From Lasiodiplodia sp. COLG20 (taxonomy: Eukaryota > Ascomycota > Dothideomycetes > Botryosphaeriales > Botryosphaeriaceae), in the NCBI GenBank assembly GCA_009801085.1, contig VNWV01000002.1, forward strand, positions 3,844,001-3,908,000: 64,000 bases of DNA, written 5' to 3'. The notes under the pieces were generated by a model. It did no database searches. It saw nothing but the letters and a program-made list of their open reading frames with translations, and had not been told where the DNA came from. This document shows positions 10,019 to 50,714 of the stretch, one piece after another. How positions within the stretch are numbered: the stretch's first letter is position 1; each line of letters starts with the position of its first letter. A program made the position numbers and the translations under genes.

Positions 10019-12051
10019 TCAAAACGTCACAACACTCGCCTCCAACACACCCTCACCCCCAATCAAACTCTTCACCACCTCCTCCGTCACCGGGCCATCC
10101 ACACCCAAAATCATCAACGCCTCAGCACTCGCCGCCTCCTCACCCTTCCCCTCCTCTCCCTCGGTCGTTCTACCCGTCGTCTGCTGCTGCACCAACGGCG
10201 CAACAATCATGCTCGAGATATTCACGCCCGCCGCCCCGAGCTTATTCCCCACAAACCCAATCTTCCCACAACTGTCAAAATTGCGACAGATCAGCATCGT
10301 CCCCTTGGGCACGAAGTTCGCCGCCGTCGCGAAGCGATCCAGCCGCGAGATATGTGGCGTGTTCGCCGACACAAAGCCCTGAATAACCTGGTCGTCATCA
10401 TTCACCACAACGTCCCCTCCTCCACCCACCGGTCCCCCCTCCAGATTCGGGCGCCCGCCACCACCAGTGTTGCTCCGCGTGAAGCTCGGCCGCACGCCCC
10501 GCGCCCCCGACGCCCCGCGGGATGGACGGGCGCGCAACGTCACGCTGCTCGCGAAACCAGAACTCGCCTCCCCTTCGTCATCGTCAGCGCGGGCGCGCCG
10601 CTCGTTGACGAGGATGCCGCGCTCCTTCGCGACGAGCTCGGCGTTAACAATATTAACATTCGGCCCGCCCGCGCCGGGGGGCAGCTCACTAATCGGCGCA
10701 AGCAGGCCCTTGATCAGCGCCGCGAAAAGCGGTTTAGTCGTGTTGAGCTCGGCGAGGTGGCCGTGGTAGGTGAGGTCGAAGGTGGTGCGGAAGGCGCGAC
10801 GGCGCTGCCGCTGGTCCGCGCTGTAGTGCTGCGTGTAGAGCGACCCCATCTTCTCGACCAGGCTGACGAACGGCTGCAGCGTGCGGTACTCGTCGGGCAG
10901 GATGAGCGGCGCGTTGACGGCGCTGCGTGGCAGGTCGCCCGAGAGGATGGCGACGACTTGCTGGCACACGTCGATGGACACGTTTTCTTGCGCCTCGACG
11001 GTCGAGGCGCCGAGGTGTGGCGTGGCGACGACTTTGGGGTGGGAGATGAGGCGCGCGGCGGGCGAGTCGGGGGCGGGTGGCTCGGTGGTGAAGACGTCGA
11101 TGCCGGCGCCGGCGACGGTGCCGGCTTCGAGGGCCTCGAGGAGAGCGGCTTCGTCGATGACGCCGCCGCGGGCGACGTTCAGGAGGCGTGCGGTGGGCTT
11201 CATTTTGGAGAGCTCGTTTTTGCCGATCATGCCTCTGGTTGAGGCTATCAAGGGCGTGTGGATGGTGAAGAAGTCCGCGGCTGTGAGCAGCTCGTCCAAG
11301 CTGTCTTTGAGCTCGACTGACGCCGCCGCGGCTATCTGAGGGTTGGCGTAGGGGTCATAGGCTATAACGTTCATGCCCATGCCATTGGCGATCCGGGCAA
11401 CAGTGATGCCGACTAAGTTGGTGTCAGATAGACGCTCGTTTTACGTAGTTGGTGACTTACCCTTTCCTGCTCCAACGATAGCAAGAGTCTTTCCCTTCAT
11501 TTCGACGCCAACGAGTCTGCTGCGTTCCCATTTGCCGGACTTTAGGCTTGCACAAGCATCTCCAATGTTCCGAGCTACAGCCATCATCACTGCATGTATG
11601 TCAGCAAAATAACTGCAGCAATTAGGTAATACGTACAGGCGACGGTGTGTTCTGCAGCAGCACCAATGTTGCCGCTAGGGCTGTTGACAACAATGACACC
11701 ACGCTTTGTTGCAGTTTCGACGTCAACCTAGTATATAGCTTAGAAATGTTGAGAAAGAGTCAAGTTCAGGGGCCAAAATACATTATCAACACCAACGCCA
11801 GCCCTGGCAACAACCTTGAGCTTTGTTGCAGCCGACAGCAGATCTGCTGTCACTTTGGTCTCTGAACGGACGATCAGAGCCTCGTAGTCTGGAATAACTT
11901 CTTTGAGCTGATCCGGAGACAAGCCTTTGCGTTCATGGACCTCGAAATTCTCTCGAAGTAGCGCCAGTCCATCCGGAGAGACCTTTTCCGGGATCAGGAC
12001 CTTCGGGCGGGGCTTCTCCGCGCCATTGGAAGACATCACTGGGATAGGCAT
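10019..12051 (-). CDS. serA: D-3-phosphoglycerate dehydrogenase, long ACT-containing form
   Basis: Catalyses NAD-dependent oxidation of 3-phosphoglycerate, the entry step of serine synthesis in the cytosol. Four exons: 12051-11782, 11727-11637, 11589-11461 and 11412-10019, 627 residues, all phases consistent. N-terminal substrate-binding motifs are VLIPEKVSPDGLALL and VVARAGVGVDNVDV. The Rossmann motif LAIVGAGKVG lies at an exon junction. Catalytic-domain motifs are LLNVARGGVIDEAAL and a VATPHLGAST histidine. The C-terminal regulatory half has the ASB-like region (NIVNAELVAKERGILVNE) and an ACT domain (GTMLICRNFDSCGKIGFVGN). A Gly/Arg/Asp-rich insert of roughly 60 residues interrupts the ASB region. 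The form resembles bacterial long-type SerA rather than the shorter yeast Ser3/Ser33, hence the symbol is by analogy. An alternative start five codons downstream is possible. Confidence 0.93.
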
Positions 12052-23357: not shown

Positions 23358-25060
23358 GGTGTTGGACTTGGCACAATCGGAGAGAAAAGGCTTCGATAAA
23401 CGGAAAATAAGCACCCCGCTAGCATACTTATACGTAGGAAGCTACGTGGGGTAGACCCTGGCTTCGCCGAGACGTCCATCGTGTGTCAGACGGAGGGATG
23501 CCGACGTTGACCAACGCACAACGTCATGGTGGGCCCGACAAGGGTCATAGAGATCCGCATTCCTCCGCTGAGAGTCTCGCCCCCGGTGTCTATGACACAC
23601 CGCTCCTCCGATGCACCACCACGGCGCTTACAAAAAAAAATGCACCTCCATATCAGTAATCTCGGTCTGCTAATTCGTTCTAGAAATATAAATCCTACTC
23701 TATCTTTCCATTCGACCGTCCTGACTTGATGAAAGTGATTGCGTTGCTTGCAAAACAGTGCCCCGCTCTTGCCTCGAGGTACGAAATGCCCAAAGTTTGC
23801 GTATATAAAGGCTCCCTTGGGTTGTTCCTCTCATCCATTGAACTCAAACGAGGTAACTCGGCACCAATTGACCTAAACCTTTTGCACTGTGACGCTGCTC
23901 ACGTATATCGCAAGCGGAGTAAGACCGTTGCTTACCCTGTTCTCGAGCTCGGACTAGGTTGATCCTTCACGATGATTCCCGGTTCAGCATTTGCGGTCTG
24001 TGCATTTGCCGGATTTAAGCGGGAATATGGGCACATAAATACAAAAAATGTGTCTAGGCGCCATACGAGCATGGAATTCAACGCCCGCCAAGCATGAACT
24101 GCGCTCCGAAATCCAACGAGTTTGCTCCGAATGCTTTACATTCGGCCGTACTGATATGCGAGAGACAGGCCGCAAAATTAGGCGCTCAATGGCTGTGCTA
24201 AGCTGTTGGGGTGAACGCGATGGTGGTGTCAGATGGTGAGATGATTGACATGATTCCGGATGCAGGGCACATGCATTGGCGTGGTACAGCAGCAGGAATG
24301 GCATTCTTTTCCCCGGATCGGCAGCCGGCGCCAGAACCTTAAAGCGACTCGCGAATTGCAAGCTCCTTCAAGAGAAGCACACTATCCCCTGCCTCGTACG
24401 ACACTTTACAAATTCGACCCCTTCGGTCATCGATAGGTCAACGGTGATAAGACAAGGATAGGATAAGGGTTCCAGTAATCCCACCATTGATAAGCGCTAA
24501 AGAGGCAACTCGTCTTCACGACCCCGCACAGTGAGAGAGCCTAAGCCGATTAGCCTTGTTTGTACATGCGTGGTTTTTGGACTTGAGAAGTACAAAAATA
24601 AATTGCTGATGCTACTTCATCGATACAAGGACTCAACAGGAGACAAAAAACTATTGGCTGTACGTATGTCAATTGAATATTCTCTTCTTCACAAATGGTT
24701 GTTGCTCATGGATATACTCCATAGGTGAATGGACCTCTTGAATCCTCAGTTGTGTGTTCTTCCCACAAGTGCGCGATGGTCGAACATGGAGCTAGCACCT
24801 TGATGGGGCTGCCGAGCGAAGCATAAAACTAGAAAGTCCCGCATCTTAGTGCGCGGGATTTTCTCTACTACACACCACAATGTCATTTCCTTCGTTCTGT
24901 TGAAATTAGCCTGTAATGGCAAATAGTAGATGCCTCCCACGGCATCCATGATGGTTCGGTGATCCCTGTTATACGTACAAATGTGAATTCCAAATAACAG
25001 ACATATGATTCATAACAGCCAGGTTACTGATGATTAAAGCCTTCAAGATGCCTGTCCTTG

Positions 25061-25168
25061 CTGCCCAAGCAGAATCTGTTCAGCGTCAGCATCGACGGGA
25101 CCGTCTCAGGCGGTGCCATGCGCCAAGCCAATCCGGCGTTCTACGACCTGCAGATACGCAAGTCGTGA
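25061..25168 (+). pseudogene. Possible C-terminal gene remnant
   Basis: One frame reads 35 residues ending in TGA with a natural look (NLFSVSIDGTVSGG, then ANPAFYDLQIRKS). A stop precedes it at about 25,030 in the same frame and no splice-consistent upstream exon was found. I do not recognise the family. It may be the tail of a degraded gene, or chance. Confidence 0.25.
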
Positions 25169-25503
25169 GAAAAAGGCCTCAATTCTCGTAAGCAACGAAG
25201 TATTCAAGCGGCGGGAGCCTAGCGGTGCGACTTATGGACTCGCTTGATGAATCGGCCGAAACCACTCGACAATACATCCCACCTCATCCTATGCACGAGT
25301 CGGAATTGAGACGTCCGACCTCGGCGTAATTGCCATGATTGCATAGTCAGCGCCGGTTTGCAACGACGACCGCCGCAGCGCCTTTGAGACCGCTCAAATA
25401 GTCGTGGAATATTGCCCTACTTTCTCCACACCATATTCATCTGCTTTTTTGGACTTAGGACGTGATCTGCGGCGGTTGTGGAGGCCGAAGATTTTTTTGT
25501 AGG

Positions 25504-25510
25504 TATAAAT
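25504..25510 (+). promoter_or_regulatory. TATA-like element upstream of tRNA-iMet
   Basis: TATAAAT lies 31-37 bases before the first tRNA nucleotide, the spacing at which TATA-like elements assist TFIIIB positioning in some fungi. Function is inferred from position only. Confidence 0.4.
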
Positions 25511-25540
25511 ACTATGACTGTAATTTTACTCGCCAAGAAA

Positions 25541-25667
25541 AGCTGAATGGCGCAGCGGAAGCGGTAAGCAGTTCCCACTCGAACGCCAATATGAACACTC
25601 AACTAACAACCTTCACAGCGCCGGGCTCATAACCCGGAGGACAGTGGATCGAAACCACTTTCAGCTA
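25541..25667 (+). tRNA. Initiator tRNA-Met (CAT) interrupted by a 55-nt spliceosomal-type intron
   Basis: Exon 1 is 25541-25563 and exon 2 is 25619-25667; joined they give 72 nt, the length of yeast initiator tRNA before CCA. Stems are perfect: acceptor AGCTGAA/TTCAGCT, D stem GCGC/GCGC, anticodon stem CCGGG/CCCGG around CTCATAA, T stem AGTGG/CCACT. Initiator hallmarks are present: A1:U72 pair, three G:C pairs flanking the anticodon loop, and T loop ATCGAAA instead of TTC. The insert 25564-25618 starts GTAAGC, has CTAAC 12 nt before the end and closes CACAG. It lies between nt 23 and 24, inside the 3' strand of the D stem (the boundary is ambiguous by one G), so only its removal restores that stem. 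The anticodon loop, where eukaryotic nuclear tRNA introns sit (37/38), is uninterrupted. An A box (TGGCGCAGCGG) and a B box (GGATCGAAACC) are intact and the insert has no TTTT. Confidence 0.93.
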
Positions 25668-26201
25668 AGAAAGTTTCTTTTTGCTCTTTTTTTCTTTGCC
25701 TCGAGAGAGCTCTGAGCCGTCAACCATTTTTGATGTTCTGTGCGTTCGATTCAGAAGCCGCGCATGCTGTCACCGACTGCCCGCATCTTTTTCGGCCTTG
25801 GCGGGGTCCCTGAACCAATTTGTACCATGGAAACGCATAGATTGCTGTCGGCACCAGAGTAACCGGTCGCTTCATGAAACCTCTCTTCTTTACAAGAGGT
25901 TTCGCGGCCCGGAGTCTTGCCGGGTAGCTGACGCGCGGGTGAGCCGGTCAGTTCGGATAGAATCAATCCCTCAGACCACATGCCCGGCTTATCGCACGTA
26001 AGAAAACCGCAGGGCCGGTCCGCATTAAAGAGCCGCGTAATTGGTGGACAAATTTGAGCGGATCGGCCCGAGAAAATAAAGTGACTTGCAGAAACCTCAT
26101 GCATGTTGAATTAATGTGATGGAAGCGACATCGTCGATGTCCTCACGATTCAGTCTCGGAGATGCTGATTAATAAGTTACAGCTTCTAGTCCCCCAACAG
26201 G
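25668..26201. other. Intergenic between tRNA and HET gene
   Basis: 534 bases. After the tRNA terminators nothing recognisable is present; the sequence should contain the 3' region of the leftward HET gene. Confidence 0.45.
25678..25693 (+). terminator. RNA polymerase III T-run terminators
   Basis: Two T-runs, TTTTT at 25678-25682 and TTTTTTT at 25687-25693, follow the tRNA discriminator base by 11 and 20 nt. This is the expected Pol III termination signal and supports transcription of the tRNA locus by Pol III. Confidence 0.75.
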
Positions 26202-27627
26202 CTACTTTTCGGAATCAGCCGTCCCACTCTCAAGATTACCACGCTCATCGCCGTTACCTGTATCACTATCCTCAAAAGTAGATACCACTACCCCCAGATC
26301 CCCACCCTCCAAGACCCTGGTGAAGTCATCAAAGACTTCATGTAGAGTCTTACGATAGTCCACTTGAAACTGGTGCTTCACAACACTGCTTTCAGCCAAG
26401 TTGAGAAAAGCAAATATCTTATCCCGAGGGTCGGTAGCTTGTCTATGCCGCATAGCATACGCAACATCCAGAATGTCGGGCGGTGGAATCTTCTCAGGAG
26501 CACCCGCTTGCCTCAACTGGAGTTCGAGCAAACCGAGAAAGCCATCGAGGCTTACATCCGTCAAGCCGATTTCGGACCATCCAGGCGACAGCACCGCAAG
26601 CTTGATGGATCGTGCAAATGCCCGAACACTCGGTGGATCGTTTGTCCAGCTCATTTGATCCGTACCACAGATGATGGTAGCCTTTCGGGAGAGTACAGCT
26701 TCCTGAACCACCCAGATCCGGAAGAACCATGGTCGTGCCATGATGTCTTGTATTCCTTTCTTCCAAAGCTCAGGTGGCCCTTGCAGCCAAGGTGCATTGG
26801 AAAGTGAAGCAGTCTTATCGCTGAAGGAGGCCAGAGCTTCGATGCCAAAATGGCTATGCTCCGTTTTTTCGCCGAGCCAGATGAGGACTTTGTCGGCCTG
26901 GCGGTAGATCTCGTCCATCAGTTGCACCTGATGCGATCTTTCACAGATATCTTCTTGGTTGATGCAAAGCGCGTCAATCCAAAGGAGTCTAGACGTCCCA
27001 GGCAAGCGAAGTTTCCGAAGTGCCGTCGACAAATTGGTTGTGATTCGTATGCTATGAGACTTCCCTACATGGCATACTTCATAGCCTGTAGAGTCACCCC
27101 ATACATAAGACAGCGCCTCGTATGAAGGGTGTTTGCGTATGTCGTGGTGGTAAAAGGATCCTTCCAGTGGCTCGGAGTCTTTCCCAGCCGAACAACAAGA
27201 CAGACGGATGGTTGACATGTCTGCTAGAGGTTTGTAGGCACCTTCCAGCCATTTATGCTATTAAACAGATATCAGCAAGGCTTGGTCGTTTGTTTGTTGG
27301 TATAAGGGTGTTGAGGGACGTTCAGAGGGTACATACGGGTGGTGAAGAAACATCCGGAATGACTGCATCATCCGCACTGAATTTCACCCAGAATCCAAAT
27401 GACAGACTCCATCCTTTTGGAAGCCTCAGCAATCGGTCGATTCCAAACGGAAGCCACGAGAATGACCAGGATTTCGTGAAGAGATGCGAGAAATATGTCA
27501 GATTGACCATGATTGTAATCAATGCCAGGACCAACGGTCGAGACTTGTGGGTGACAGGGCGAGGTGGATTGAAAACGGGACGAGGAGCGAGCGTAAGAAC
27601 TTTCCAAGGTTCATTCAGGTGGTACAT
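26202..27627 (-). CDS. HET-domain (heterokaryon incompatibility) protein
   Basis: Exon 2, 27257-26202, encodes a HET domain. YKPLADMSTIRL leads into YEALSYVWGD (motif 1), LLWIDALCINQEDICERSHQ (motif 2), then WFFRIWVVQEAVL (motif 3) and a C-terminal RDKIFAFLNLA. Joining exon 1 (27627-27337) through a GTATGT...GCTGATATCTGTTTAATAG intron keeps the frame and supplies the upstream residues, giving 448 residues. Exon 1 contains a hydrophobic stretch (RPLVLALITIMVNLTYF) that could be a membrane anchor; it is less certain than exon 2, and the shortest defensible protein starts at ATG 27218 (338 residues). HET domains act in non-self recognition and regulated cell death after hyphal fusion. Partner and trigger cannot be told from sequence. 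The C-terminus is short for the family and ends in an acidic Gly/Glu/Ser tail. Confidence 0.85.
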
Positions 27628-49221: not shown

Positions 49222-50714
49222 ATGGCCGACGGTAAACAAGCCATCAAGGCGCTGAACCAGCTTGGTTCCGCCGCGACCCATGAATTTGTGCTGCCGAAGA
49301 AGCAGATCAACGATGGCGAAGATGTCGGCTTCTTTCTGACCTCTACTGGCTATGCCGACATCATGACGTGGCTGCTGCAGCTGAATGCCGCCATGTTTCC
49401 CAAAAAGACCCCATCCTCATATGAAGCGTGGCAGCTGAACAGTGAGGCTGTCCAGTTGTCAGAGCCCGTGGCGAGATTGAGGGCTTTGATGGGACAGCTG
49501 GAAGCCATCATCGATGAGGCGCCTCCGGACCCCGGTCCACGGAGATTTGGCAACATCAGTTTCAGGAAGTGGTATGAGATTGTTGAATCTCGTTTACCCA
49601 AATTGCTGGACGAGGCCCTTTCCGCCGAGATCCTGAGCAGCGGAAAACCAACGTCTGCGAAGGACGAGCTTCAGGCCTACCTCGTCGGTAGCTTTGGTAG
49701 TGCTCAAAGACTGGACTACGGCACGGGCCACGAACTGAGCTTCCTTGCATTTCTCGGTGGTATTTGGAAGCTAGGAGGCTTCGCAAAGAGCGACCCTGGT
49801 GTTGAGGAGCGAGGAATTGTAATCGGTGTCATCGAGCCGTGAGTGCGTCGAAATGAGCCTGCACCGCCTTGCGCTAACTGCTCCCAGATACCTGCACCTT
49901 GTCCGCCGACTCATTTTGACCTACACGCTCGAACCAGCCGGCTCGCATGGAGTCTGGGGCCTTGACGATCATTCGTTCATCCCGTATATTTTTGGCTCCG
50001 CGCAACTATCGCCTCCTATTCAATCCGCCGCCGACATCCCCGGCGAGGGCTCGTTGCCTGATGCCCCCGAGCCGGGAGACGTCGCAAAGAAGAACGTGGT
50101 CGAACGAGAGCGCAGCGTCAACATGTACTTCAGCGCGATCGGCTTCATCTATGACGTGAAGAAGGGGCCGTTCTGGGAGCACAGCCCCATTCTGTTCGAC
50201 ATTTCTGGAGTACGAGCGGGCTGGGCGAAGATCAACAAGGTATGACTCTAATTTCCATTCTCGGCCCCTACGTTGACACCTTGCACAGGGCATGCTCAAG
50301 ATGTACAACGCGGAAGTGCTTTCCAAATTCCCCGTGGTACAGCATTTCCCATTCGGCTCGCTGTTTCGCTGGGAGAAAGACCCAACGGCGGCAGAGCCCC
50401 CAAAGTCTATTCATACCACAAGCCAGCCTTCCAGGGCGCCTGCGGGCCAGGCATCCGACGGTCCCCAGCGCTTCCCCGCGCAGGCGGGCACCGCTGCTCC
50501 GTGGGCATCAAACCCAGCAACGGGGCTGCCCATGACGGCTGCGCCGTGGGCTGCACGCCCGTCAGGGGGAACGGGCCGGCCGGGGATGACGCAAATGGGG
50601 GCGATGCCGGGAGTCACGACAGCGCCATGGAAGCAGAGCGCGCCACCGCAACCCGGCGATCGAGTACAAATGCCGCAGACGCAAGCACCGTGGGCGCGGA
50701 AAGACCCTTCATGA
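49222..50714 (+). CDS. RRD1: PP2A phosphatase activator (PTPA, Rrd-type peptidyl-prolyl isomerase)
   Basis: Activates PP2A-family phosphatases by helping load catalytic metals, with cis-trans isomerase activity in the family. Three exons: 49222-49838, 49888-50239 and 50289-50714, 464 residues. Conserved motifs are [80 protein letters not shown] and [20 protein letters not shown]. The C-terminal roughly 100 residues are Pro/Gly-rich with four APW motifs (TAAPWAS, TAAPWAA, TAPWKQ, QAPWARK), a feature I associate with the Rrd1 branch of filamentous fungi rather than Rrd2; the symbol is therefore tentative. ATG 49222 is preferred because its surroundings fit CACCATGG and the upstream frame is not protein-like. 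Confidence 0.9.

Follow-up and report, generated by a model that had tools for sequence, protein, structure and literature searches.

The window analysed here, a 64,000-nucleotide (nt) stretch of the fungus Lasiodiplodia sp. COLG20 (GenBank assembly GCA_009801085.1, contig VNWV01000002.1, positions 3,844,001 to 3,908,000), carries on its plus strand an initiator tRNA-Met gene interrupted by an insert with the signals of an mRNA intron. Direct reading of positions 24800–26500 gives two exons, 25541–25563 (tRNA positions 1–24, with the A box at 25548–25558) and 25619–25667 (positions 25–73, with the anticodon CAT and the B box, GGATCGAAACC, at 25646–25656), which join into a 72-nt initiator tRNA-Met, so that the insert leaves both boxes uninterrupted. 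In the spliced form, GCGC pairs with GCGC in the D stem, CCGGG with CCCGG in the anticodon stem, AGTGG with CCACT in the T stem and AGCTGAA with TTCAGCT in the acceptor stem. The insert (25564–25618, 55 nt) interrupts the 3′ strand of the D stem, between positions 24 and 25, and not the 37/38 site. It opens with the 5′ splice site GTAAGC (25564–25569), contains the branch-site motif CTAAC (25603–25607), with the branch adenosine at 25606 followed by 12 nt, and closes with CACAG, of which CAG (25616–25618) is the 3′ splice site, the layout of a U2-type (GT–AG) intron. As G25563 equals G25618, the junction can slide by one base, and the GT–AG rule settles its position. The original prediction, made from the letters of the window alone, had described a cloverleaf restored by removing a 55-nt insert with mRNA-type signals at a non-canonical site, and every statement that it made about the sequence held.

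Eukaryotic initiator tRNAs are marked by A1–U72, GGG/CCC pairs in the anticodon stem, the anticodon CAU and A54, all of which are present in the window gene. With the insert removed, ARAGORN calls tRNA-Met(cat); in the unspliced window, no tRNA is found by ARAGORN or by Rfam at the gathering score. Allowing up to 3 mismatches, the window contains a single copy of a 20-mer that spans the donor site (chance mean 0.01; a match in 1 of 100 shuffles). Group I and group II introns were rejected as candidates: they measure hundreds of bases against 52–60 nt for the tRNA introns described here, and Rfam, run on the window only, gave no match to them.

The insert had also been likened to the protein-gene introns of the window, and the likeness stands. 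Three mRNA introns placed by homology (PTPA, 49839–49887 and 50240–50288; PGDH, 11590–11636 on the minus strand) are 47–49 nt long, with 10–12 nt after a branch adenosine in CTAAC, TTGAC or CTGAC, branches that were picked by eye. A frame-based scan, itself unconfirmed, gave 11 rows with 9 distinct donors, one donor with three rows being counted at its shortest; 7 of the 9 introns are 47–59 nt long and the others 79 and 89 nt, and the branch-to-end distance is 10–12 nt in 5 of 9 (range 7–24), more variable than in the homology-placed set. The tRNA introns, at 52–60 nt, are similar in build to both sets. Two proteins of the window place the genome in Lasiodiplodia or very near it (Dothideomycetes, Botryosphaeriaceae): over 60% of the query, the PTPA-like protein shares 98% identity with one of Lasiodiplodia theobromae, and over the whole query, the phosphoglycerate dehydrogenase (PGDH) shares 95% identity with one of L. 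hormozganensis.

Across the assembly (43,524,824 bases in 88 contigs), four initiator genes were found and all four are split at the same site. An anticodon-arm 13-mer has five occurrences, four of them initiator genes; a 16-base D-arm word is exact at four places, which are the same four genes; and the spliced 72-nt sequence, used as a query, finds four loci, each as one piece from position 23 to the end, with no locus in the assembly matched across the junction. Exon-1 pieces appear among the matches to this query for three of the four loci, and all four exon-1 sequences were seen by direct reading. The original prediction had named, among the observations that would overturn it, an intact second initiator gene together with a lack of reads across the 25563/25619 junction; no intact gene was found. 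The four introns are 59, 55, 57 and 54 nt long, share an identical GTAAGC donor and place the branch adenosine 12 nt from the intron end in every copy. Their mean pairwise identity is 1.00 at the donor, 0.93 over the branch heptamer and 0.38 in the interior, a value within the range of shuffled sequences (20 shuffles: mean 0.31, highest 0.39), and two of the genes have their first 21 intron bases in common. The tRNAs fall into two types, which differ by C6–G67 to A–U, G7–C66 to A–U and A50–U64 to G–C (our own numbering). Pairs 6–67 and 7–66 bridge exon 1 and exon 2 and are compensated, which argues that selection acted on the spliced molecule. Segmental duplication was rejected as the cause of the four split genes, because their flanks are unrelated over 1,200 bases per side, with no match above 20 bases. 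Contamination was likewise rejected as a source of related loci: the donor 20-mer is exact in two bacterial metagenome-assembled genomes, with no tRNA downstream. The donor 20-mers of the initiator and tRNA-Phe genes have 0 matches in viral contigs.

The phenomenon, predicted from one gene, extends to at least four tRNA families. Among the fetched loci, three implausible ARAGORN calls of 157–166-nt Thr and Arg tRNAs proved to be tRNA-Phe genes with two introns each. A mature tRNA-Phe query finds six genes in the genome, each matched only as positions 1–30 and 38–73, and none of the six is unsplit. The first intron, at 30/31, is 54–60 nt long and reads GTTAGY...CACTAAC...YAG; it is followed by a 7-nt exon, ACTGAAG, and then by an ordinary 37/38 intron containing CTTCAG, which is complementary to CTGAAG, the anticodon stretch. 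At 30/31, the mean pairwise identity between copies is 0.94 at the donor, 1.00 at the branch and 0.41 in the interior (shuffles: mean 0.30, highest 0.36); the 37/38 intron is 0.86 identical throughout. Judged from these sequences, the two introns of one RNA appear to be under two kinds of constraint. All six Phe genes have a conserved, structured trailer that folds into two hairpins, and in Phe-2 and Phe-6 the pair changes are compensated; the T run begins 44–49 nt past the tRNA in these genes as opposed to 9–20 nt in the eight remaining split genes.

Two further families were reached through weak tRNA matches. Both tRNA-Arg(UCU) genes found are split, one at 11/12 (GTATGT...CTGAC...TAG) and one at 13/14 (GTAAGT...CTAAC...TAG), and Arg(UCU)-2 also carries a canonical 37/38 intron. 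Both tRNA-Ala(UGC) genes found are split, one at 55/56 and one at 9/10, so that the first exon of Ala-2 is 9 nt plus leader. The 55/56 intron (C1, near 658 kb) interrupts the B box, but its own first bases, GTAAGTTCGATCC, restore a B-box-like sequence within it. No intact copy of either tRNA was found in a genome search with the spliced forms, the other matches being four known tRNA-Lys(CUU) genes. The different sites in sister genes (11/12 and 13/14 in Arg; 55/56 and 9/10 in Ala) suggest either separate gains or sliding of the intron.

In total, 14 split genes in four isoacceptors use six sites (24/25, 30/31, 11/12, 13/14, 9/10 and 55/56, in our own numbering), none of which is the 37/38 position of TSEN-type introns. 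All 14 introns have a GT donor and an AG acceptor at the exon junctions and lengths of 52–60 nt; the branch motif is CTAAC in 12, CTGAC in one and TTAAC in one, with 10–12 nt after the branch adenosine in every case. In silico splicing, with exon ends set by hand, gives the expected isotype by ARAGORN in 14 of 14 (the Arg-2 and Ala-1 calls have 1–3 extra end bases). Unspliced, six of these genes give no call and seven a wrong isotype; the remaining one is called as the right isotype, but its 5′ end is misplaced. These anatomies, together with copy number, conservation pattern and restored tRNAs, were observed directly in the DNA. That the split genes are pseudogenes whose working copies are absent from the assembly could be argued from its 88 contigs, which may be incomplete, and from the view, in a 2014 review, that eukaryotic insertions in the D and T arms mostly affect one of many copies and mark pseudogenes (PMC4090602). 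Here, every copy found is split (4 of 4 initiator, 6 of 6 Phe, 2 of 2 Arg(UCU) and 2 of 2 Ala(UGC)); the initiator genes combine unrelated flanks with compensated acceptor pairs and T-run ends; and a branch spacing of 10–12 nt in 14 of 14 would not survive decay. We therefore consider a pseudogene origin highly improbable.

An unusual endonuclease that excises the insert was the second mechanism named in the original prediction; on this reading, the GT–AG appearance would be coincidental. Non-canonical tRNA introns are reported from some eukaryotes (PMC4090602), and the ordinary 37/38 introns of this genome lead one to expect an endonuclease pathway. The probability that inserts at six sites all end in GT and AG by chance is about (1/128)^6, a rough estimate that allows a one-base slide, and conservation is concentrated on the splice signals. 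A bulge–helix–bulge score gives 3–5 for the 14 introns as opposed to 8, 9, 2, 5, 9 and 7 for canonical controls, a weak discriminator given that it misses two of the six true cases. The host genes were chosen by tRNA similarity and not by splice signals, yet 14 of 14 have GT, AG and a branch site, which points to the spliceosome. With the splice-signal conservation and ten further genes with GT–AG introns at five further sites, removal by the spliceosome is strongly favoured, and coincidental endonuclease substrates are very unlikely.

Among 49 other tRNA calls of at least 86 nt (many with ordinary 37/38 introns, and some mitochondrial), 44 lack a GT–branch–AG stretch and five hold a loose one, each starting in exon sequence and not at the intron. 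An unguided scan of the fetched genome DNA (about 0.6 Mb, both strands and overlapping stretches included), with the two Ala genes outside the count, yielded 643 GT–branch–AG candidates and from them 8 distinct spliced tRNAs, all at the split loci. Wrong-end controls gave 5 tRNAs from 661 candidates and 4 from 1,046, all at Phe, Arg-1 or one Gly gene and mostly of wrong anticodon or shape. The survey is not a census: it leaves out Trp, Tyr, Ile, Pro, Val(AAC), Lys(UUU), Leu(CAA) and elongator Met, and with RF00005 at E up to 10, 63 of 1,009 candidates were scored. B-box patterns gave lists of 36, 9 and 14 places, all read except 12 nuclear places already read and 2 mitochondrial ones; no GT–AG intron was found at these further places by ARAGORN and by eye, with 8 stretches lacking a tRNA call and one illegible.

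Several features around the genes are those of RNA polymerase III (Pol III) transcription units. In the window, a TATA-like box, TATAAATA, lies at 25504–25511, 37 nt upstream of the tRNA 5′ end, and T runs of five (25678–25682) and seven (25687–25693) form a putative Pol III terminator, all on the plus strand. Loose AT-rich words occur at −33 to −46 in 4 of 4 initiator genes, an observation made without a chance control. A T run of at least 5 lies shortly downstream of 14 of 14 split genes and inside none of them. RNA polymerase II (Pol II) might instead transcribe these loci as longer host RNAs that are spliced as such and yield the tRNA as a by-product, in keeping with the fact that Pol II RNAs are the usual substrates of the spliceosome. 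The T runs argue against this, as do the A and B boxes kept in the initiator genes, the substitute B box in Ala-1 and the upstream AT-rich words, and we regard such Pol II host RNAs as most improbable.

Taken together, the window gene is very probably a functional initiator tRNA-Met gene with a U2-type spliceosomal intron at 24/25, removed by the spliceosome from a Pol III pre-tRNA, and one of at least 14 such genes; of the two mechanisms offered in the original prediction, the evidence supports the spliceosome. Some observations weigh against this. In early mammalian work, RNAs made by Pol III reportedly served poorly as substrates for splicing. The minimum-energy fold of the spliced initiator by RNAfold differs from the textbook cloverleaf, and the branch-site-to-acceptor stretch of the initiator introns is also fairly similar between copies (0.69). 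One wrong-end control splice at Arg-1 gave a 71-nt Arg(UCU) call, and the same gene has a T4 run inside it. The B box of Ala-1 is split at 55/56, though the intron start supplies AGTTCGATCC. Read by eye, the acceptor stem has a U6–U67 mismatch in both Ala tRNAs, and a G1–U72 pair is present in both Arg tRNAs. All conclusions rest on the DNA sequence of one genome.

From this sequence, we infer an order of events. Transcription of the initiator gene by Pol III would be directed by the intact A and B boxes and would end at the T run. The spliceosome would then read GTAAGC, CTAAC and CAG and join the exons, presumably by intron definition on an intron of 52–60 nt, after which the D stem (or, in other families, the anticodon stem or T loop) could close and end trimming, modification and export could follow. 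In pre-tRNA-Phe, the spliceosome would act first, at 30/31, and the tRNA endonuclease and ligase second, at 37/38, because the latter step requires the anticodon stem to be closed.

If the assembly is complete, spliceosomal removal would be obligatory for initiator and Phe tRNA. The sole initiator and Phe genes found are split, and Arg(UCU) decodes AGA; loss of splicing would therefore be expected to stop translation in more than one way. It also seems likely that the spliceosome is here an obligatory tRNA-making machine, needed for every initiator and Phe tRNA as well as for Arg(UCU) and Ala(UGC), that Phe tRNA passes through two unrelated splicing machines, that introns entered these genes up to six times and that spliceosome load could set initiator supply. 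The coupling of initiator supply to mRNA splicing, already proposed in the original prediction, would follow from the anatomy.

In the textbook division of nuclear splicing, mRNA introns are removed by the spliceosome and tRNA introns by a protein endonuclease and a ligase, with U6 as the Pol III exception; U6 introns occur in other fungi besides Schizosaccharomyces pombe. An mRNA-type intron lies in the U6 gene of S. pombe, which Pol III transcribes, and the tRNA introns resemble it as U2-type introns of Pol III products (PMC10484740). They differ in that U6 is a spliceosome component whose intron is believed to have arisen by reverse splicing close to the catalytic site, whereas the hosts here are tRNAs, of four isoacceptors and with six sites. 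The sole match to U6 in this genome covers its full length, uninterrupted by an intron. Canonical 37/38 introns (TSEN, Trl1) share the nuclear tRNA gene host, and coexist with the new introns in the Phe and Arg(UCU)-2 genes, but differ in position, sequence signals and conservation pattern. Archaeal, Cyanidioschyzon merolae and nucleomorph introns also occupy sites in the D, anticodon and T arms, but are linked to bulge–helix–bulge motifs or, in the Guillardia nucleomorph, measure 3–24 nt, as opposed to 52–60 nt with GT, branch site and AG here (PMC4090602). The same review calls eukaryotic non-canonical tRNA introns rare, with examples in some algae and nucleomorphs and most other arm insertions deemed pseudogenes (PMC4090602). 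Introner-like elements are recent spliceosomal intron gains in Dothideomycetes, the fungal class of the present genome (PMC4457414). The 14 tRNA introns differ from them in showing no likeness across families save one 10-nt match over the branch site, and the word tRNA is absent from the main text of that paper (PMC4457414).

The original prediction knew of no described case, and a search of open-access full text, with most subscription papers and bioRxiv outside its reach, turned up no description of tRNA genes with introns of the spliceosomal kind. The intron type is known, but we found it undescribed in hosts of this class, and we consider the case very surprising. If true, the divide between mRNA and tRNA splicing is not mechanistic, the spliceosome accepts structured Pol III RNAs whose exons can be very short (in Ala-2, 9 nt plus leader), and an obligatory step can tie splicing to translation initiation. 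Questions of intron gain could also be put to the test in genes of about 72 nt, the structure of which is known at every base. Because ARAGORN misses or misnames 13 of the 14 unspliced genes and misplaces an end of the remaining one, initiator and Phe genes may be absent from, or misnamed in, annotations of this lineage; the non-canonical intron search of tRNAscan-SE 2.0 is described for archaeal candidates (PMC8450103).

Ordinary 37/38 introns are frequent among the nuclear tRNAs of this genome, and those of the tRNA-Gly(GCC) genes are long, at about 33–67 nt. Three tRNA-like stretches have a good T arm and a lost or odd 5′ half, and are perhaps relics or hard-to-read genes with long introns. 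Beside the initiator gene of the window, an open reading frame with a HET (heterokaryon incompatibility) domain lies at 26202–27218 on the minus strand.
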